From: Gemmatimonadota bacterium
GTDB lineage: Bacteria; 4572-55; J002
Assembly (NCBI GenBank): GCA_003697105.1
Contig: RFFQ01000195.1
Coordinates: 1-10,582 of the forward strand
Direction of reading: 5' to 3'
Length of the DNA: 10,582 bases
Made by a program: the position numbers and the translations under genes. The notes under the pieces were generated by a model, which had not been told where the DNA came from, searched no databases, and worked only from the letters and a program-made list of their open reading frames with translations. Within the stretch, counting starts at the first letter, position 1. Every line of letters begins with the position of its first letter. Of the stretch, positions 1 to 10,363 are shown piece by piece.

Positions 1-408
1 GTGGAAAGTGAACAACCGGCGCTGGAAGATGAATTTCTGGCAGCGGAGAGTGAACAACCGGCGCTGGAAGATGAGTTTTTAACGGCGGAGGCAGAACAAC
101 CGGCGTTGGAAGACGAGTTTTTTGAGGCAGAACCTGCTCCTCCGGTGGAAGCGGCGCAACCGGCGCTGGAAGATGACTTTTTTGAGGCAGAACCTGCTCC
201 TCCGGTGGAAAGTGAACAACCGGCGCTGGAAGATGAATTTCTGGCAGCGGAGAGTGAACAACCGGCGTTGGAAGACGAGTTTTTTGAGGCAGAACCTGCT
301 CCTCCGGTGGAAAGTGAACAACCGGCGCTGGAAGATGAATTTCTGGCAGTGGAGAGTGAACAACCGGCGCTGGAAGATGAGTTTCTGGCAGCGGAGAGCG
401 AGCCCCTG
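1..408 (+). repeat. In-frame tandem repeat array encoding acidic QPALED(E/D)F units
   Basis: Eight copies of QPALED begin at residues 5, 19, 33, 53, 73, 87, 107 and 121. They occur as 14-residue (42-bp) units ending in FLAA-type sequence and 20-residue (60-bp) units that add EAEPAPPV. A 42+60 pair gives a 102-bp higher-order step, seen between 205 and 307. The DNA copies are nearly identical: bases 1-63 match 205-267 exactly. That points to recent duplication or gene conversion. The array runs off the left edge, so total copy number is unknown. Each unit is rich in Glu/Asp, Pro and Ala and is probably an extended, disordered spacer. Confidence 0.93.
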
Positions 409-2064: not shown

Positions 2065-2099
2065 AAGACGGTAGAGATTGAATCTACCGTCTTTTTTTT
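2065..2099 (+). terminator. Rho-independent terminator after the CheA-like gene
   Basis: AAGACGGTAGA (2065-2075) pairs perfectly with TCTACCGTCTT (2083-2093) around the 7-nt loop GATTGAA. A run of T follows at 2092-2099. A smaller hairpin, CCGTT-CATA-AACGG (2045-2058), lies just before it. There is no T-run on the other side, so it should work only for + strand transcription, ending the CheA-like transcript and isolating the next operon. Confidence 0.93.
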
Positions 2100-2210: not shown

Positions 2211-2864
2211 ATGATTCCCATCATTACGCCCGAAATTGAGCACTACCTTAACCGCCTTCAACCCACCACAGACCCGGTGTTGCAGGCAATGGAAGCGTAT
2301 GCCGCCGATATTCAGTTTCCCATTATTGGACCCCACGTCGGGCGATTATTGCACTTGCTGGCAAAGCTGAGTAATGCCCGTAAGATTTTAGAACTCGGGT
2401 CTGGGTTTGGTTACTCGGCGTATTGGTTGGCGCAAGCTATCCCCGCCGGTGGGGTTATTTATTGTACCGAGTTTGACCCTCAAAATCGGGAACGTGCCTA
2501 TACCTATCTGCAATCTGCGGGATTATCTAGTAAAGTCCGTTACTATACCGGCGATGCGCTGGAATGGATCGAGCAACTCGAAGAAACTGAATTTGATATG
2601 ATCGTGAACGATGTTGACAAAGAAGATTATCCCCGTGTTATCGAAAAAGCCTTACCAAAATTGCGCCTCGGAGGGCTATTAATTACCGATAATGTCCTCT
2701 GGAAAGGACAGGTCATTCAGGAGCCGCCCCCGGATACCAAAACCCAAAATGTCCAAATTTATCTCCAGCAAGCACTGCATCACCCAGATTTGACCACCGT
2801 AATCCTGCCCATTCGGGATGGCGTGGCGATTAGCATGAAAACAGGATCGGGAAAGGCTCCATGA
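2211..2864 (+). CDS. Class I SAM-dependent O-methyltransferase, cation-dependent (methyltransferase family 3)
   Basis: This 217-aa protein has the normal length and layout of the catechol/caffeoyl-CoA O-methyltransferase family. These are cytosolic enzymes that move a methyl group from SAM to a hydroxyl of a small, usually aromatic, acceptor. Visible motifs are the SAM loop LELGSGFGYS (60-69), the acidic ribose-binding residue E87 in YCTEFDP, the stretch NDVDKEDY (133-140) that replaces the usual IDADKxxY, and TDNVLWKGQV (159-168). By comparison with catechol O-methyltransferase, the likely metal ligands D134, D160 and N161 are kept. The C terminus has the usual RDGVAISMK ending. The start at ATG 2211 was chosen for its ribosome binding site; a longer TTG-initiated frame at 2142 would overlap the promoter. 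The stop overlaps the next start by ATGA, suggesting coupled translation with the acetyltransferase. The substrate cannot be read from the sequence. Confidence 0.88.
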   Translation: MIPIITPEIEHYLNRLQPTTDPVLQAMEAYAADIQFPIIGPHVGRLLHLLAKLSNARKILELGSGFGYSAYWLAQAIPAGGVIYCTEFDPQNRERAYTYLQSAGLSSKVRYYTGDALEWIEQLEETEFDMIVNDVDKEDYPRVIEKALPKLRLGGLLITDNVLWKGQVIQEPPPDTKTQNVQIYLQQALHHPDLTTVILPIRDGVAISMKTGSGKAP

Positions 2865-3301
2865 CAGTTGAAATCCCCCCAATAACCGCATTAAAATCAA
2901 TTAAACAACTTCTTAGGGATGCCGGATTGCCCTATGAAGATTTAACCCCATTGCACCTAGACCATTTTTTTGTGGCGGGCGAAAATGGTGCAATTCTGGG
3001 CACGGTTGGTTTAGAAATTTGCGATACACACCACGCGCTTTTACGCTCTTTGGTGGTTTCACCCGGCGCGCGCGAGCGTGGGTTGGGTACTCAACTGGTC
3101 AATACCGTCGAACAGTATGCTAGGCGTAAAGGAATCTCTTACGTGTTTTTGCTCACGACCACGGCAAGTGCCTTTTTTGCCAAACACGGATATGCGCTCA
3201 TTCCTCGTGAAGATGCGCCAGATGCCGTGCAACAGACGGCAGAATTTAAGAATATTTGCCCTTCAAGTGCCAGATGTATGTTCAAGCGGCTGGACTCATG
3301 A
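2861..3301 (+). CDS. arsN2: GNAT-family N-acetyltransferase, ArsN2-like
   Basis: A compact 146-aa GNAT protein. The acetyl-CoA pyrophosphate loop is RERGLG (71-76), after the strand LLRSLVVSP (60-68). The hallmarks of the ArsN2 subgroup are present: an N-terminal LLRDAGLPYEDL (17-28), LLTTTASAFFAKHGY (97-111), REDAPDAVQQTAEF (116-129) and the ending CPSSARCM (133-140). ArsN2 is named from arsenic-resistance loci, and the wider ArsN group acetylates amino groups of toxic compounds. No arsR, arsB, arsC or arsM is visible here, so the arsenic link rests on family resemblance alone. It starts by ATGA overlap with the O-methyltransferase, with AAAGG (2852-2856) 4 nt upstream, and its stop overlaps the start of the transglutaminase gene in the same way. 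The pairing with an O-methyltransferase might instead suggest modification of a small metabolite or drug. The GNAT assignment is sure; the substrate is unknown. Confidence 0.85.
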   Translation: MTVEIPPITALKSIKQLLRDAGLPYEDLTPLHLDHFFVAGENGAILGTVGLEICDTHHALLRSLVVSPGARERGLGTQLVNTVEQYARRKGISYVFLLTTTASAFFAKHGYALIPREDAPDAVQQTAEFKNICPSSARCMFKRLDS

Positions 3302-4884
3302 ATCGACTCTGGATAATTATCCTCGTATTGCTGTTTTCGACACCGGGGGACGCCCAACTTCGTACAGAAGCGATTGAAGCCTATAATGAAGCCGTCCCAT
3401 TGCTAAATGGCGGGCAGTGTGACCGGGCTGTGGCACTCCTTCGCAAAGCGGTGCGGCTGGCGCCCGAGGAAGTGACCTTTCGCCGCGGCTTGGCAATATG
3501 CCTGATGGAAACCGGCCAACACGAAGCGGCATTGCAGGAATTTAGGCGGGTGGTGGAAGCTGACCCAGATGATCACGAGGCATTTTACCAGATCGGTTAC
3601 ATTTATTCGGAAATTTTTCAAGATTTAGAACAGGCGCTACCCTATTATGAACGAGCCGCCCAACTCCAGCCGGTATCTACCATCTACCAAAAAACGTTGG
3701 GCCTCACCTACGAGCGTTTGGGGCAACTGGACAACGCCCGTCGGGTGTACGAAGATGCGTCTCGTCGCCAGAATGCGGATGAGTGGGTTGAGAAGCGGTT
3801 AAGTGCAAATCAACCGGCGGCGTACCGGGTGAAATACCGCCTTTTTTTGTCAAACAACGGGCGGTCAGACGTTCGCAAACTCCACTTGTGGGTGTCGGTG
3901 GCGCGTGATTTTCCACCCCACCAAGCGACAGAATTCGTTGCGGTTCACCCACCGGTTACCCAATTGGTGCAGGATTCGGTTGGGAATCCACTTGCTTATT
4001 TTGCCTTTGAAGATGTACCTTCCGGTTGGAAACAGACGGTAGAGTTTGATTACCGAGTGCAGATCAACCCCACGATGTACCATTTACAACCCGGAATGGT
4101 GTATTTAGCGGATTATGACCGCACGAAGCGACAAATTTCCCATTATTGCCAACCGGAACGGTTTGTAGAAGTCGATCATCCGCAAATACAAGCCAAAATG
4201 CGGGAACTGACAAGAACTTCCGGCAGTGATGCCATCCGTGCCATGCGGGAAATTTATGATTTTGTCCGGCTAAATCTCCCCTACACCATTGCCGAACGGA
4301 CTCACGGGGCGTTGTATGCCCTCAGTGGCGGCTCGGAGACGGATTGCAGTGAATTCAGCGCCCTTTTTACGGCATTAAGCCGCGCATACGGAGTGCCAAC
4401 GCGGCAGGTGCACGGGTATTTGCACCAACCGGATGCCGCTGAAAACACGGCTCATGCGTGGGCGGAAATCTACTTACCCAAAGGGCAATGGGTGCCCATT
4501 GACCCCACCTCCGGGCGGGATAGCCCAGAGCAGTTTTTTGGCAATATCAACAGTATTCAGATCGGGATGTGGACTCCCTCCCGTCTGTTGGAAGGGCATG
4601 ATCACTGGCTGATTTCGGAATATCGGGAAGACCAATCGATGCCGGAGATCGATTCTGATGTGGATTATCAGATTGAGGTGATCCCGCTCTGGCGCAATGC
4701 GGATCGCCCGGTTCCGGAAAGCTCTCTTGATCTACCGGTAGTGACCTCTTTAGAGGAGGTCATGCAGATTTCACCCTTTGAAAAACGTTCCGCTGTAACC
4801 CCGCTAACATTGATTTTTCTGGGGATTGCCTTTGTGCCCATGTTGGTGGTGGTTGCCCTTAAATTCAAGCAGGAATCATGGTAA
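3298..4884 (+). CDS. Secreted TPR protein with transglutaminase-like cysteine domain and C-terminal membrane anchor
   Basis: The ATG at 3298 is preferred to one at 3256 because it gives a clean signal peptide (MNRLWIIILVLLFSTPGDA, cleavage near residue 19-20) and overlaps the upstream stop as ATGA. The product is 528 aa. Residues 21-160 hold about four TPR units (for example DRAVALLRKAVRLAP and HEAALQEFRRVVEADPDD). Residues 170-300 form a beta-rich region typical of the segment before bacterial transglutaminase domains. Residues 310-405 are the transglutaminase/protease fold, with likely triad C350 (TDCSEFSALF), H386 (TAHAWAEIYLP) and D402 (WVPIDPTSG). A hydrophobic helix at about 502-522 is followed by KFKQESW, which implies a periplasmic body with a short cytoplasmic tail. 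Domains of this kind act as peptidases, amidases or crosslinkers in the envelope; the reaction here is unknown. The next gene starts immediately after its TAA. Confidence 0.85.
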   Translation: MNRLWIIILVLLFSTPGDAQLRTEAIEAYNEAVPLLNGGQCDRAVALLRKAVRLAPEEVTFRRGLAICLMETGQHEAALQEFRRVVEADPDDHEAFYQIGYIYSEIFQDLEQALPYYERAAQLQPVSTIYQKTLGLTYERLGQLDNARRVYEDASRRQNADEWVEKRLSANQPAAYRVKYRLFLSNNGRSDVRKLHLWVSVARDFPPHQATEFVAVHPPVTQLVQDSVGNPLAYFAFEDVPSGWKQTVEFDYRVQINPTMYHLQPGMVYLADYDRTKRQISHYCQPERFVEVDHPQIQAKMRELTRTSGSDAIRAMREIYDFVRLNLPYTIAERTHGALYALSGGSETDCSEFSALFTALSRAYGVPTRQVHGYLHQPDAAENTAHAWAEIYLPKGQWVPIDPTSGRDSPEQFFGNINSIQIGMWTPSRLLEGHDHWLISEYREDQSMPEIDSDVDYQIEVIPLWRNADRPVPESSLDLPVVTSLEEVMQISPFEKRSAVTPLTLIFLGIAFVPMLVVVALKFKQESW

Positions 4885-5067
4885 ATGAGCCTCGATGACC
4901 TCTATCACAAAGCCGGAGAGTGTGTGCGCGAGCGCAACTACGCGGAAGCCCTTTCCTATTTGGAATACGCGCTCAGCCAATATCCCGATGATGCCAAAAC
5001 CCAGATTTTGGTGGAAATTTTACGGCTCAAACGAATGTGTGAGGAGTTTTTAGCCCGTGAAGTCTGA
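4885..5067 (+). CDS. Small TPR-like protein (60 aa)
   Basis: The ATG directly abuts the TAA of the transglutaminase gene. AGGA (4871-4874) lies 10 nt upstream, so a reading frame here is well supported by position. The protein has one TPR-like helical hairpin: DLYHKAGECVRERNYAEALSYLEYAL (5-30) followed by SQYPDD, with the typical small residue and A/L pattern. A further charged helix, VEILRLKRMCEEFLAREV, follows. There is no signal peptide, so it should be cytosolic. A single TPR hairpin seldom folds alone and may dimerise or dock on a partner, plausibly the short cytoplasmic parts of the neighbouring membrane proteins. That role is inference. Its 3' end overlaps the start of the next small gene by 11 bp. 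Confidence 0.72.
   Translation: MSLDDLYHKAGECVRERNYAEALSYLEYALSQYPDDAKTQILVEILRLKRMCEEFLAREV
5041..5046 (+). promoter_or_regulatory. Ribosome binding site for the 55-aa membrane protein
   Basis: GAGGAG sits 10 nt before the GTG at 5057, inside the coding sequence of the 60-aa TPR-like protein. It is the main reason for choosing this GTG as the start of the overlapping small gene. Confidence 0.55.
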
Positions 5068-5224
5068 TCCAACATCCCCTTCCGAACAAAACCGCTGGCA
5101 TCGCTGGGAAGAATTACATGACTGGCGAGCCAAATATCGCCGTCGCCGCTCCCCCATTATCATTTTGGGTCTGCTGATTTTGGTGCTGGTGTTGATGTGG
5201 CGGTTTGCCCATTACGGTATGTAA
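5057..5224 (+). CDS. Small single-pass membrane protein (55 aa)
   Basis: A GTG-initiated frame overlaps the last 11 bp of the TPR-like gene and ends at TAA 5222-5224, 14 nt before the next start. The translation has an N-terminal polar part with an aromatic and basic stretch (NRWHRWEELHDWRAKYRRRR, 12-31), then one hydrophobic helix (SPIIILGLLILVLVLMW, 32-48) and a short tail RFAHYGM. The RRRR just before the helix predicts, by the positive-inside rule, a cytoplasmic N terminus. A GAGGAG ribosome binding site lies 10 nt upstream. Without this gene a 171-bp hole would sit in an otherwise tightly packed operon. I recognise no family. The arrangement suggests a small subunit or anchor that works with the two larger envelope proteins on either side. 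Confidence 0.7.
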   Translation: MKSDPTSPSEQNRWHRWEELHDWRAKYRRRRSPIIILGLLILVLVLMWRFAHYGM

Positions 5225-5238
5225 GGCATGAGGTGCTT

Positions 5239-7191
5239 ATGAAAAAATGGATGATGTTATTGTGGCTGAGTGGTATCTTTAGTATGTTAGCCAGCGCCAG
5301 CCCGGCGCGCCCAGTGGTCTATTTTCTACCCGGTGTGTTTGATAGTACCGTCGTGGAAATGCGGATTGAGGCAATGCGCTTCATGGGGGTGACAATGGAA
5401 AATCTCGGTAAAATAGATTCCGAATGGCAGACGACCCGCCTGCCGCAAACGGATATTTCCGACGAAATTCAAGGTTACCTGATCGAGACTCGCACCCAGT
5501 GGGCAAGTCCCCTCCACCAAACGGAGATGAAAAATCGCTTGTTGGGGTATCTACCGGTGGCGGATTATCTGGTGTATCTCGAGATGGACCAACCGGACCC
5601 CAATTACCGCTGGATTTACGTGGTGATCTTCCCGTTGCGGGGCAGTAACACTCCCATTGTGCTCGAACGCGAACAGTACCGCGTGGATGATCATCTTGCT
5701 GAAAATATCGATGCGGCGGCGAATCGAGCGGCGCACAAAATATATAACAAGGTGCAGGAACTTACCCGTACCGCTTTTCGGGAGGAAAACAAGCGGCAAG
5801 TGGTGTTTGTGGTAGATGAGTCCGAAACGATGAAAACAAATGACCCGGATCGCATCCGTGCCGATGTGATCGATTTTATCATCGCCAATGTTCTGCATGA
5901 GTTTGATGAGGTGGGGCTGGTCGGCTTTAACTCCTTCAAAGAAACACGAACGATCCTGCCCTTAACGCCGGTGGAAACTTTGCGGAAACGCCAAAAATGG
6001 CCTGCCCAACAGATTCAAAATCAGCGGCGAGGGGGTAAATTTACGAATTTATATGCCGGATTACAACAGGCAGACCAACTATTTCAGGCAACCCCCCCAG
6101 CGGCGTGTCAGGTGGTCATTTTGCTCTCGGATGGTATTACCCGCCAGCAAAACGGTGACTCGGAACTGGATATTGCCGGTCTCAAGCGGCTTAAAAAAGT
6201 TAATGGAGTGGAACTCGGACGCACGGAAAAAGAGATTCATACGGCGGTGTATGACCAACTATTGCCACGATTGTTAGCCAATTTTCGGGAACGTGGCGTT
6301 CAACTGCACACGATCACCTTCGCCAAAGAAAGCGGGCGAGGGTTTACCTACATGGAAGAACTCGACCGTCTTCCCGATGGCATCAACGATGCCCTGATTT
6401 TAACGACGCGGTTTGATAGTCTCTATGCGGAAATTTTAACCCAAACGCTAAACCCCCAACGGTGCCGTCCGGGGGTGCATTCCCAATATCAGTATGAATC
6501 GATCCAGCTTCAACGGGGCAAAAATTACATTAAATACCTGGATGTCAGCCGTGATCCGGCGGATTTGCGCACCGATGTGTTTTTTAGTGAAAAAGTTGAT
6601 TTTAGCGATGGCAAGCCGGAGGTGATTTTATACACTCCCGATAATCGTATCTACCACAAAACGAGTGCGGGGCTTGGCAAGCGGAGCAGTATCTCCTTTT
6701 TCGTGCCGCAGGATAGTATTGCCAAATATGCAGCGGTGCCCGGTCGCTGGCGGATTGAAATCACACAAGTGGACGTAAATGTGGGGGCGGTTGTTGGGTT
6801 TGAATGGCTTTCGCGCCGGTCTGCCCCCCTATTGCTCTCCGCGTGGATTGACCCGGAAACGAACGAATGGTTTTTTGAGACCAATGACGTTCAAGCCATG
6901 ATGCAAATTGTACAGGACTTTCTCAATTCACTCCAGTTCCAAAACTGGACGGGTAAAATGACGGTGCGCGGCACAGAAACCACCATTCAAGCAGGTGGTA
7001 TTGAGGATACGCAGGCGGTAGAAATCACCGTTGAAAAAGAGACGCCCGAATCCGAACCGGTTATTACCCGCACGATTCCTGCCGAATCCCCTCCGAAAAA
7101 ATTCCCGTGGTGGTGGGTGATTTTGGGTATTGTTTTGGTGACCGGCGTTGCAACCGGTGCGTATTTCCGGTGGCGAAAACGGACGTATTAG
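5239..7191 (+). CDS. Secreted von Willebrand factor A (vWA) domain protein with C-terminal membrane anchor
   Basis: The ATG at 5239 (GAGG at 5230-5233, 5-nt spacing) is preferred to GTG 5197 because it starts a signal peptide, MKKWMMLLWLSGIFSMLASA, with likely cleavage near residue 20-23. The product is 650 aa. Residues 24-180 are an unrecognised alpha/beta domain. Residues 187-400 are a vWA domain. Its metal-binding (MIDAS) set is complete except that the usual DxSxS reads D193-E-S195-E-T197; the other ligands are T269 (GKFTN) and D298 (LLSDGI). Residues 410-600 are beta-rich with no family I recognise. A Pro/Glu-rich spacer (about 600-620) leads to one helix, WWWVILGIVLVTGVATGAYF (624-643), then RWRKRTY. 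This predicts a periplasmic body anchored by its C terminus. vWA domains usually bind partner proteins through a divalent cation. As the last gene of the operon it is a likely partner of the transglutaminase-like protein and the two small proteins. A MoxR-type ATPase, common near such proteins, is absent. Confidence 0.85.
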   Translation: MKKWMMLLWLSGIFSMLASASPARPVVYFLPGVFDSTVVEMRIEAMRFMGVTMENLGKIDSEWQTTRLPQTDISDEIQGYLIETRTQWASPLHQTEMKNRLLGYLPVADYLVYLEMDQPDPNYRWIYVVIFPLRGSNTPIVLEREQYRVDDHLAENIDAAANRAAHKIYNKVQELTRTAFREENKRQVVFVVDESETMKTNDPDRIRADVIDFIIANVLHEFDEVGLVGFNSFKETRTILPLTPVETLRKRQKWPAQQIQNQRRGGKFTNLYAGLQQADQLFQATPPAACQVVILLSDGITRQQNGDSELDIAGLKRLKKVNGVELGRTEKEIHTAVYDQLLPRLLANFRERGVQLHTITFAKESGRGFTYMEELDRLPDGINDALILTTRFDSLYAEILTQTLNPQRCRPGVHSQYQYESIQLQRGKNYIKYLDVSRDPADLRTDVFFSEKVDFSDGKPEVILYTPDNRIYHKTSAGLGKRSSISFFVPQDSIAKYAAVPGRWRIEITQVDVNVGAVVGFEWLSRRSAPLLLSAWIDPETNEWFFETNDVQAMMQIVQDFLNSLQFQNWTGKMTVRGTETTIQAGGIEDTQAVEITVEKETPESEPVITRTIPAESPPKKFPWWWVILGIVLVTGVATGAYFRWRKRTY

Positions 7192-7306: not shown

Positions 7307-10300
7307 ATGAAAACCGCAAATCAAATCCGGCAGGATTTTTTAGATTTTTTTGCTTCCAAAGACCATACGATTGTGCCCAGTGCTCCGGTGGTGCCCCACG
7401 GAGACCCTACGTTGTTGTTTACCAACGCCGGTATGAATCAATTTAAAGATGTCTTTTTAGGACAGGGAACGCGTCGTTATACGCGAGCGGCGGACACCCA
7501 AAAATGTATCCGAGTTTCCGGCAAACACAACGATCTGGAAGAAGTTGGGCGGGATGGTTACCATCACACCTTTTTTGAGATGTTGGGTAACTGGAGTTTT
7601 GGGGATTACTACAAAAAAGAAGCCATCGAGTGGGCATGGGAACTCCTGACCGAGGTTTGGAAATTACCCAAAGACCGGTTGTTTGCCACCGTTTACAGGG
7701 ATGACGATGAGGCATTTGAACTCTGGAAGACCTGTACAGACATTGGCGAAGATCGTATTTTGCGGTTTGGGGAAAAAGATAACTTTTGGGAGATGGGTGA
7801 CACCGGTCCCTGTGGTCCCTGTTCCGAAATTCATTATGACCGTACCCCAGATAAATCCGGTAAATCGCTGGTCAATGCGGGTGTGCCGGAGGTCATGGAA
7901 ATCTGGAATCTGGTCTTTATCCAATACAACCGGGAAGCAGACGGCTCGTTAAAAGAACTGCCGGCGAAACATGTGGATACGGGTATGGGTTTTGAGCGTA
8001 TCGTGGCGGTTCTTCAAAACAAAACCTCCAATTATGACACCGATATTTTTACGCCGATTATCGCGAAAATTGCGGAAATCGCCGGAGTGCCGTACTATCC
8101 GGATGAACGGGGCATCCCCCATCAGGTGATTGCCGACCATATCCGCATGATTACGTTTTCCATCGCGGATGGCGCGCTACCCTCCAACGTCGGGCGCGGC
8201 TATGTCATCCGCCGGATTTTGCGCCGGGCGGCGCGTTTCGGACGCAAACTGAATTTGCATGAACCGTTTTTGTACCAAATTGTCGATACCCTCGTCGAGA
8301 ATTACGGGCACATGTTCCCTGAACTGATCGAACAACAAGACCATGTCAAGCGTGTCATTGAAGCAGAAGAGACCAGCTTTAATCGCACTTTGGATCGCGG
8401 GATTCAGCTATTTGAGCAGGAGACTGAAGGTATTTCCAAACTGGCGGCGATAGACCGGGATATTCTGAGCCGGATGGAAGCCAATGCTGTTGCCGGCGAG
8501 GAACAGTATCGCCAAATGTTGCGTACTCTTCAACACCCTCTTGAGACCCATGCGCAGGCATTTGCCATGTGGTTGGATGAACTGAATGAGGTGTACCATC
8601 AGCAACTAAAATTGCTAGAACAAACACTGGATGAACTCAAGCAAGCACATCGATTACACGAAACCACCTGCCAACCCTTCATGGAGTATGTGGCAAATAC
8701 CGCCCGCGTTTTTGAGCGGAATTTGGAACGGGGTAGCGAACAGATCGAATCCTACGGCAAAGTGGAAGACCTAGACCCCCAAAACGCGGAGCGTAATCTT
8801 GCGGTGCTGTTGGATGCCTTGCGTGACATTTTTCAAAGTGATGATCCGCTAGCGACCAATGGCTTTAAACGCGCGCTACAGTACCATCTCCAACAGGATT
8901 ATATTATCCCCGGCGAGGTGGTTTTCCGTTTATACGACACCTATGGTTTCCCTGTGGATATGACCCGCCAAATGGCGGAAGAGCGTGGCTTGCAGATCGA
9001 TGAAAAAGGGTTTGAACAGGAGATGGCGGCGGCAAAAGCACGTTCCCGGGCAACAACCACCTTCAAAGTGAACTTATCCCAAGATGATAGCGATTGGATT
9101 CCCGTCGTGGCCGTGGATGAGATCGAATTCTTGGGCTATGAAGAGACCGAAGCGGATGCCCACATTGTTAAATATCGCTTTGAAGGTGACCAGATTCAAT
9201 TTGTGTTGGATCGAACTCCGTTTTATGCGGAATCTGGGGGACAGGTGGGCGATACCGGACGGGTTTATAACTCTGATTTTTCGATCCGGGTCGAAGATAC
9301 TCAAAAAATTAAAGGGCAGATTGTTCACATTGGAACCCTCCAACACGGGGAAATTACCGATAATCTGGCACGGGCAGTCATTGATAAAGACCGGCGGGCA
9401 GCAATCCGGCGTAATCACACCGCGACCCATCTGTTACATAAAGCGCTACGGGATGCGCTGGGTACGCATGTTCAACAAAAGGGATCGTTAGTTGCACCAG
9501 ACCGGTTGCGGTTCGATATTTCCCATTATGAGGCGATTGATGAGGCGACCTTACACAAGGTAGAATCGCATATCAATCAGAAAATCCTACAAAATATTCC
9601 GGTAGAGACCCACATCAAACCGCTGGAAGAGGCGCAAGCGATGGGGGCGATGGCGCTTTTCGGGGAAAAATATGATGAGATGGTACGGGTCGTTCAAATT
9701 GCGGATTATTCCTTGGAGCTTTGTGGCGGAACGCACTGCCGGGCTACCGGCGACATCGGGTTATGCAAGATTGTGAACGAGAGCAGTATCAGTGCTGGGG
9801 TGCGGCGGATCGAAGCCGTTACCGGTGAGGGTGCCCTTGCCGATATGGTAGAAAAAGAACACATTTTACAAACCGTAGCGCATACCTTGAAATGCGCGAT
9901 CCCGGAAGTGCCGCTCCGTGTGAATGATTTGCAAAACAAAATCAAAGCATTGCAAAAAGAAAATGAAGAACTGCAACAACAAGCTATCCGGGGGAAAATC
10001 GCGAATATCCTTGATGATGTTACAGAAGTAAACGGTGTACGTGTTCTGGCGACGCAACTGGACGGGGCGGATGGCGACGCCCTGAAATCCCTTTGTGATG
10101 AATTGCGTCCCAAATTAGGTCGTGGGATCGCGGTACTTGGCTCTGTGCTAGGTGGCAAAGTGGTGCTGGTGGTCATGGTCACGGATGATTTGGTAAAAAC
10201 AGGTGTCAAAGCGGGGGACATTATCAAACCGATTGCCAAAATCGTGGGTGGGGGCGGCGGCGGTCGTCCAAATCTTGCCCAAGCGGGTGGTAAAAATCCG

Positions 10301-10363
10301 GAAAAGTTGGGTGAAGCGATTCAACAAGTACCGGAGATTGTGGAAACGTTTTTGCCACAATGA
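7307..10363 (+). CDS. alaS: Alanyl-tRNA synthetase with a large helical insertion
   Basis: This enzyme charges tRNA-Ala with alanine in the cytosol and hydrolyses mischarged Ser- or Gly-tRNA. Catalytic-core signatures are LLFTNAGMNQFKDVFLG (37-52), RDGYHHTFFEMLGNWSFGDY (82-101), DNFWEMGDTGPCGPCSEIHYD (158-178) and VDTGMGFERI (223-232). The tRNA-recognition region includes NVGRGYVIRRILRRA (294-308) and RLYDTYGFPVDMT (541-553). The editing domain has DRTPFYAESGGQVGD (635-649), the zinc site H704/H708 (NHTATH) and C806/H810 (CGGTH). A coiled-coil linker (about 873-895) leads to the C-Ala domain, with GGGGGGRPNLAQAGG (981-995). All expected catalytic and editing residues are present. The length, 1018 aa, exceeds the roughly 875 of typical bacterial enzymes. 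The excess lies at residues 374-533, between FNRTLDRGIQLFEQE and IIPGEVVFRLYD, where most homologues have a short linker. The reading frame is intact throughout, so this is a real insertion and not a frameshift. Confidence 0.98.
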   Translation: MKTANQIRQDFLDFFASKDHTIVPSAPVVPHGDPTLLFTNAGMNQFKDVFLGQGTRRYTRAADTQKCIRVSGKHNDLEEVGRDGYHHTFFEMLGNWSFGDYYKKEAIEWAWELLTEVWKLPKDRLFATVYRDDDEAFELWKTCTDIGEDRILRFGEKDNFWEMGDTGPCGPCSEIHYDRTPDKSGKSLVNAGVPEVMEIWNLVFIQYNREADGSLKELPAKHVDTGMGFERIVAVLQNKTSNYDTDIFTPIIAKIAEIAGVPYYPDERGIPHQVIADHIRMITFSIADGALPSNVGRGYVIRRILRRAARFGRKLNLHEPFLYQIVDTLVENYGHMFPELIEQQDHVKRVIEAEETSFNRTLDRGIQLFEQETEGISKLAAIDRDILSRMEANAVAGEEQYRQMLRTLQHPLETHAQAFAMWLDELNEVYHQQLKLLEQTLDELKQAHRLHETTCQPFMEYVANTARVFERNLERGSEQIESYGKVEDLDPQNAERNLAVLLDALRDIFQSDDPLATNGFKRALQYHLQQDYIIPGEVVFRLYDTYGFPVDMTRQMAEERGLQIDEKGFEQEMAAAKARSRATTTFKVNLSQDDSDWIPVVAVDEIEFLGYEETEADAHIVKYRFEGDQIQFVLDRTPFYAESGGQVGDTGRVYNSDFSIRVEDTQKIKGQIVHIGTLQHGEITDNLARAVIDKDRRAAIRRNHTATHLLHKALRDALGTHVQQKGSLVAPDRLRFDISHYEAIDEATLHKVESHINQKILQNIPVETHIKPLEEAQAMGAMALFGEKYDEMVRVVQIADYSLELCGGTHCRATGDIGLCKIVNESSISAGVRRIEAVTGEGALADMVEKEHILQTVAHTLKCAIPEVPLRVNDLQNKIKALQKENEELQQQAIRGKIANILDDVTEVNGVRVLATQLDGADGDALKSLCDELRPKLGRGIAVLGSVLGGKVVLVVMVTDDLVKTGVKAGDIIKPIAKIVGGGGGGRPNLAQAGGKNPEKLGEAIQQVPEIVETFLPQ
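8426..8905 (+). other. Insertion segment inside alaS encoding about 160 helical residues
   Basis: Residues 374-533 of the synthetase have no counterpart that I recognise in standard AlaRS. They are rich in Glu, Gln, Leu and Ala with heptad-like spacing (for example LNEVYHQQLKLLEQTLDELK, 426-445), which predicts a helical bundle or coiled coil. Base composition and codon style look the same as in the rest of alaS, so there is no sign of a recent foreign insert. Boundaries are approximate. Confidence 0.7.

Follow-up and report, generated by a model that had tools for sequence, protein, structure and literature searches.

Transglutaminase-like and vWA proteins of the bacterial envelope are usually accompanied by a MoxR ATPase and by TgpA, a multi-TM protein. 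The precedent for a periplasmic transglutaminase core is TgpA of P. aeruginosa, which has transglutaminase activity in vitro (PMC3507681) and which, having the same catalytic core, is the nearest experimental guide for the TPR-transglutaminase described here (P0001). The Bat proteins (BatA-E) include MIDAS-bearing vWA and TPR proteins of the envelope, for which a large complex has been proposed (PMC3557215), and in the MoxR-vWA ternary conflict systems (VMAP) vWA proteins occur alongside TPR modules and, rarely, a transglutaminase-like peptidase (PMC7159879). The locus analyzed here, from a Gemmatimonadota bacterium, is a new architecture of these known domains.

The window analyzed is the entire contig C80 (10,582 bases) of a 4.18 Mb genome that is 97% complete. 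The four ORFs proposed in an earlier note on this DNA were all recovered on the + strand at the same positions, namely P0001 (3298-4884; 528 aa), P0002 (4885-5067; 60 aa), P0003 (5057-5224; 55 aa) and P0004 (5239-7191; 650 aa), and the overlaps of their starts and stops were confirmed: the P0001 stop abuts the P0002 start, P0003 overlaps P0002 by 11 nt, and P0004 starts 15 nt past the P0003 stop. The note had described these genes as a tightly packed four-gene module. While the overlaps and abutments are real, the tight packing does not start at 3298 and belongs to a six-gene run, since the P0001 start is overlapped (ATGA) by a GNAT acetyltransferase gene (2861-3301, + strand), the start of which is in turn overlapped by an O-methyltransferase (Methyltransf_3) gene (2142-2864, + strand), the first of the run. 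Downstream, alaS (7307-10363, + strand) lies 115 nt 3' of P0004, outside the module and bounding it; the four-gene "module" is therefore a boundary choice within a run of six or seven genes. The complete order is hairpin, O-methyltransferase, GNAT, P0001 (TPR-transglutaminase), P0002, P0003, P0004 (vWA) and alaS. The hairpin, a terminator-like pattern match at 2065-2093 (+ strand; 11 pairs, T-rich tail) located 3' of a CheA-like gene, is likely the upstream limit of the operon. A sigma-70-like promoter match (2113-2141, + strand; 10/12) directly precedes the O-methyltransferase gene, for which the ATG at 2205 is the more likely start; this match is weak because the count of promoter-like matches across the region was not above that in shuffles.

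The GNAT protein passes the NCBIfam cut-off for ArsN2, an arsenic-resistance acetyltransferase (152 vs 125 bits), with no ars genes nearby. At the beginning of the window (1-400), the CheA/CheW-like protein carries an acidic N-terminal tandem repeat of the ESEQPALEDEFLAAE type, with DNA periods of 21, 42, 60 and 102. The alaS product (window 7307-10363) contains a helical-looking insertion of ~155 residues (377-532), which separates the N-terminal catalytic part from the remainder and is present neither in the same-class genome nor in seven other genomes compared; residues 1-378 of this AlaRS match those of genomes G059 and G055 at 66% and 65%, respectively, and the same-class genome at 60%. 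At the contig end (10404-10508) a 29-bp unit, CATTGCAACGTCTCTACGGAATCCCACC, is repeated in tandem three to four times; the unit was absent from the other loci compared, and the repeats probably mark the point where assembly stopped.

P0001 was delineated using Pfam, triad residues, hydrophobicity and an ortholog in candidate division TA06 bacterium SM23_40. Its parts are a signal peptide, TPR repeats (~28-160), an N-terminal beta domain (~170-290), a transglutaminase-like core (302-403) and a C-terminal TM anchor (~498-525). Transglut_core (PF01841) matches residues 302-403 at 79.4 bits (cut-off 23), several TPR models likewise exceed their Pfam cut-offs, and the catalytic triad named in the earlier note, C350/H386/D402, lies in order within the above-cut-off Transglut_core match. 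The N-terminal stretch is signal-peptide-like as judged by eye, and the C-terminal hydrophobic segment is followed by basic residues. Pfam searches returned nothing significant for the N-terminal beta domain and no TgpA_N membrane domain in P0001. Among solved transglutaminase structures the closest in sequence is TgpA (6g49), at a marginal E of 0.01, which is too little to name the reaction of P0001.

Relatives were sought in 386 sampled genomes, only two of them from this phylum. One P0001 ortholog was identified, a 595-aa protein of SM23_40 (LJUI01000009.1; G103:C13:7444-9231, L069:7444-9231 / L074), with E 7.9e-63 and 39% identity for the transglutaminase part and 34% identity across the alignment. 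Its gene is flanked by an alkaline phosphatase gene, 62 nt away, and by rlmN in divergent orientation; no vWA, 60-aa or 55-aa gene adjoins it, and no match to P0004 better than E 0.25 was obtained in the SM23_40 genome. Further profile searches using the two sequences, among them a scan of GTDB 220, again returned SM23_40 and no third ortholog, and with an ortholog set of one, two sequences cannot separate a protease from a transamidase. The next best relatives share 24-28% identity over the N-terminal beta domain and core, and include proteins in which, in the examples checked, a beta-propeller replaces the TPRs. The strongest statement to be made is that P0001 appears, from its sequence, to combine TPR, N-terminal beta domain, transglutaminase-like core and C-tail anchor in an architecture of its own, which two bacteria from different phyla have kept.

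P0004 was delineated using Pfam, MIDAS residues, hydrophobicity and a structural model, and consists of a signal peptide, an N-terminal alpha/beta domain (~24-180) without family assignment, a vWA domain, a beta-rich domain (~425-620) and a C-terminal TM anchor (~622-645). The vWA assignment is above cut-off for two Pfam models (VWA_2, 39.9 vs 27 bits; VWA, 36.9 vs 23.8 bits), and the MIDAS is complete, with D193/S195/T197/T269/D298 all present as previously read. As in P0001, the start is signal-peptide-like by eye and basic residues follow the hydrophobic C-terminal segment. The N- and C-terminal regions gave nothing significant in Pfam. The N-terminal domain is the least explained part of the protein. 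The full-length AlphaFold2 model had a pLDDT of 36 and was unusable, and the N-terminal domain modelled alone from its single sequence reached 51, a low-confidence model in which a first helix is followed by three strands and then a long helix. This latter model had no Foldseek match at E <= 0.001; its best VIA-align score was to PqiC (8q2c; Z 7.2, rmsd 3.9, 98 aligned), with CsgG at Z 5.5 and ribosome hibernation factors tying, and its likeness to PqiC/LptE/CsgG-type envelope folds was no better than to unrelated alpha/beta folds of the same arrangement. These middling scores leave a CsgG/LpoB/TolB-type domain, the initial guess, as a candidate.

Searches with P0004, first of 60 genomes and then of 386, yielded only weak matches confined to the core of the vWA domain (best E 1.7e-6; 29% over ~120 residues), and no relative was found in the same-class genome, among the 42 pattern matches of a pattern-limited GTDB 220 contig scan, or in a pattern-limited scan of viral contigs; these were single-sequence queries, by which diverged orthologs could be missed. 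A 41%-identity match to P0004 on contig C144 of the same genome was rejected as the wrong frame of a long ORF. PHROGs and PADLOC returned no match beyond generic TPR. Within the genomes covered, the proposed gene-neighborhood check falls on the side that the note had named as refuting: the four genes were found together neither elsewhere in the 386 genomes nor in the pattern-limited GTDB 220 scan. This absence is weak evidence against a module, because only two genomes of this phylum were among those searched.

The two small genes were assessed by a log-odds score of codon usage, with 23,350 codons from other genes of the same genome as training data, and compared to a null set of 268 spurious ORFs of 45-75 codons located inside long genes. 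P0002 scored 0.285 per codon, exceeding 268/268 of the spurious ORFs. P0003, which has a GTG start, scored 0.037 and exceeded 259/268 (9/268 reach that score), a low value that still falls within the 5-95% range (0.004-0.31) seen for 55-codon stretches of real genes. Based on these scores, P0002 is well supported as a real gene and P0003 is plausible. In agreement with the original description of two tiny proteins, one TPR-like and one membrane-spanning, P0002 is a soluble TPR-like protein by sub-cut-off Pfam matches to TPR models only (TPR_19, 21.9 vs 25 bits), and P0003, for which no Pfam match was found, has a single, strongly hydrophobic segment that follows a very basic N-terminal stretch.

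The genome encodes BamA, LpxA and LpxC-FabZ, and an outer membrane and periplasm are thus present. These diderm genes support the placement of the locus in the envelope, as do the C-terminal hydrophobic segments that had been predicted and were found in P0001 and P0004, with one hydrophobic segment in P0003. The large domains of P0001 and P0004 would accordingly be expected to face the periplasm.

The explanation we favor, tentatively and at a little under an even chance, is that P0001 is a self-contained, inner-membrane-anchored periplasmic enzyme whose TPR region docks clients, with P0004 as a loosely cooperating adaptor. The signal peptide would export P0001 and the C-terminal helix would retain it in the inner membrane; the TPR superhelix would dock an envelope client, to be processed at a papain-fold Cys350-His386-Asp402 site acting as an amidohydrolase/protease or a transamidase. 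P0001 is most likely a self-contained periplasmic thiol enzyme, because two bacteria from different phyla keep its architecture, one of them without companion genes. P0004, an orphan of the same predicted topology, has a MIDAS metal site that could bind a client or partner by an acidic side chain; it is possibly a lineage-specific MIDAS protein serving as a cooperating adaptor. Loose cooperation with P0001 is plausible and perhaps probable, given that the two would be co-expressed and face the same compartment, the link being read from their co-location in a single genome. P0002, in the cytosol, and the single-pass P0003 may link P0004 to the cytosolic side.

Another reading, in which the six genes are merely co-transcribed as a matter of convenience, P0001 and P0004 serve separate clients and the small proteins are unrelated accessories, is somewhat unlikely. 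It would account for a run that mixes small-molecule enzymes, a GNAT protein and alaS, for the unlinked P0001 ortholog, and for the same-class genome, which lacks P0004 and in which the surroundings of alaS are different and unrelated to the window. However, P0001 and P0004 have in common an export signal and C-tail anchoring and lie <=355 nt apart with only two tiny genes between them, a likeness exceeding that of usual random neighbors (this is an argument, not a computed probability).

The fixed stoichiometry or complex suggested in the earlier note fares less well. As an obligate four-protein complex, the P0004 MIDAS would present substrates to P0001, P0003 would span the membrane and P0002 would form a cytosolic cap. 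Starts and stops that overlap or abut across the four genes, the matching topology of P0001 and P0004, the presence of TPR and vWA as interaction domains and the large complex proposed for the Bat vWA and TPR proteins (PMC3557215) are all consistent with such an assembly; yet the SM23_40 ortholog of P0001 occurs without the vWA, 60-aa and 55-aa neighbors or a convincing P0004 match (E 0.25 at best), and the metabolic O-methyltransferase and GNAT genes of the same run, hardly to be expected in such an assembly, are equally tightly packed, which argues against an obligate complex and makes it distinctly unlikely. Quite improbable, in our estimation, is an ATPase-free envelope processing machine in which P0001 is fed by P0004, a MIDAS adaptor whose N-terminal domain would be new, and P0003 links the cytosolic P0002 cap.

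With respect to MoxR, no MoxR AAA+ gene was found on the 10.6-kb contig, which shows 3.3 kb of sequence before the module and 3.4 kb after it. The genome has four MoxR genes that pass the family cut-off, all on other contigs. One belongs to a locus on contig C153 that encodes a vWA protein carrying the N-terminal domain of BatA (PF07584), MoxR, a DUF58-like protein (22.3 bits, slightly short of the 23.4 cut-off) and a transglutaminase of the TgpA type; the other three have no vWA neighbor within the stretches read. The note had named a rearranged MoxR/Bat locus with its ATPase elsewhere as the outcome that would count against a separate module, and the intact C153 locus supports the view that this is not what the window holds. 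A split or decayed MoxR/Bat-type locus with an ATPase acting in trans on P0004 is largely refuted and carries very little probability, for while vWA, TPR and transglutaminase form the MoxR-linked part list and three MoxR genes stand without a vWA neighbor, the genome keeps its own intact BatA-MoxR-DUF58-TgpA locus, Pfam finds neither PF07584 in P0004 nor TgpA_N in P0001, and a signal-peptide-exported vWA protein would be beyond the reach of a cytosolic AAA+ ATPase. As a separate observation, directly upstream of a MoxR gene on contig C48 lies a gene (L035:5514-8546; G000:C48) for a 1010-aa protein with YadA-head repeats and a terminal Peptidase_S74 (endosialidase chaperone) domain.

Returning to P0001 as a self-contained enzyme with a possible P0004 adaptor, comparisons with the known systems place the locus as follows. 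The VMAP systems are centered on MoxR and VMAP, whereas this locus is without MoxR and its PADLOC match is a trivial TPR. The Bat proteins resemble it in pairing a MIDAS vWA protein with TPR proteins of the envelope, but the present locus has no BatA N-terminal domain and no MoxR, and its transglutaminase-like enzyme is fused to the TPR. Beta-propeller transglutaminases (for example L040:8450-10165 and L042:8500-10179) have the N-terminal beta domain and core in common with P0001, at 25-27% identity, with an N-terminal Vgb/SGL-type propeller in place of the TPR. The SM23_40 TPR-transglutaminase has the same order of TPR, N-terminal beta domain, core and C-terminal TM with the triad conserved, and differs in its longer TPR region and in being unlinked, without the vWA or small genes; this stand-alone ortholog offers a clean route to working out the respective contributions of the TPR and of the vWA protein. 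TgpA, like P0001 in its predicted topology, is membrane-attached with a periplasmic Transglut_core, and the C153 TgpA locus also has a vWA protein; unlike P0001, TgpA has the N-terminal multi-TM TgpA_N and a DUF4129 tail and adjoins MoxR and DUF58, where P0001 has a TPR, a signal peptide, a C-tail anchor and no ATPase nearby. If active, P0001 would serve as a compact, soluble-domain equivalent of TgpA and be easier to work on. The locus has the same kinds of parts in another build and topology, free of an ATPase, and the conventional set is present in this genome as well.
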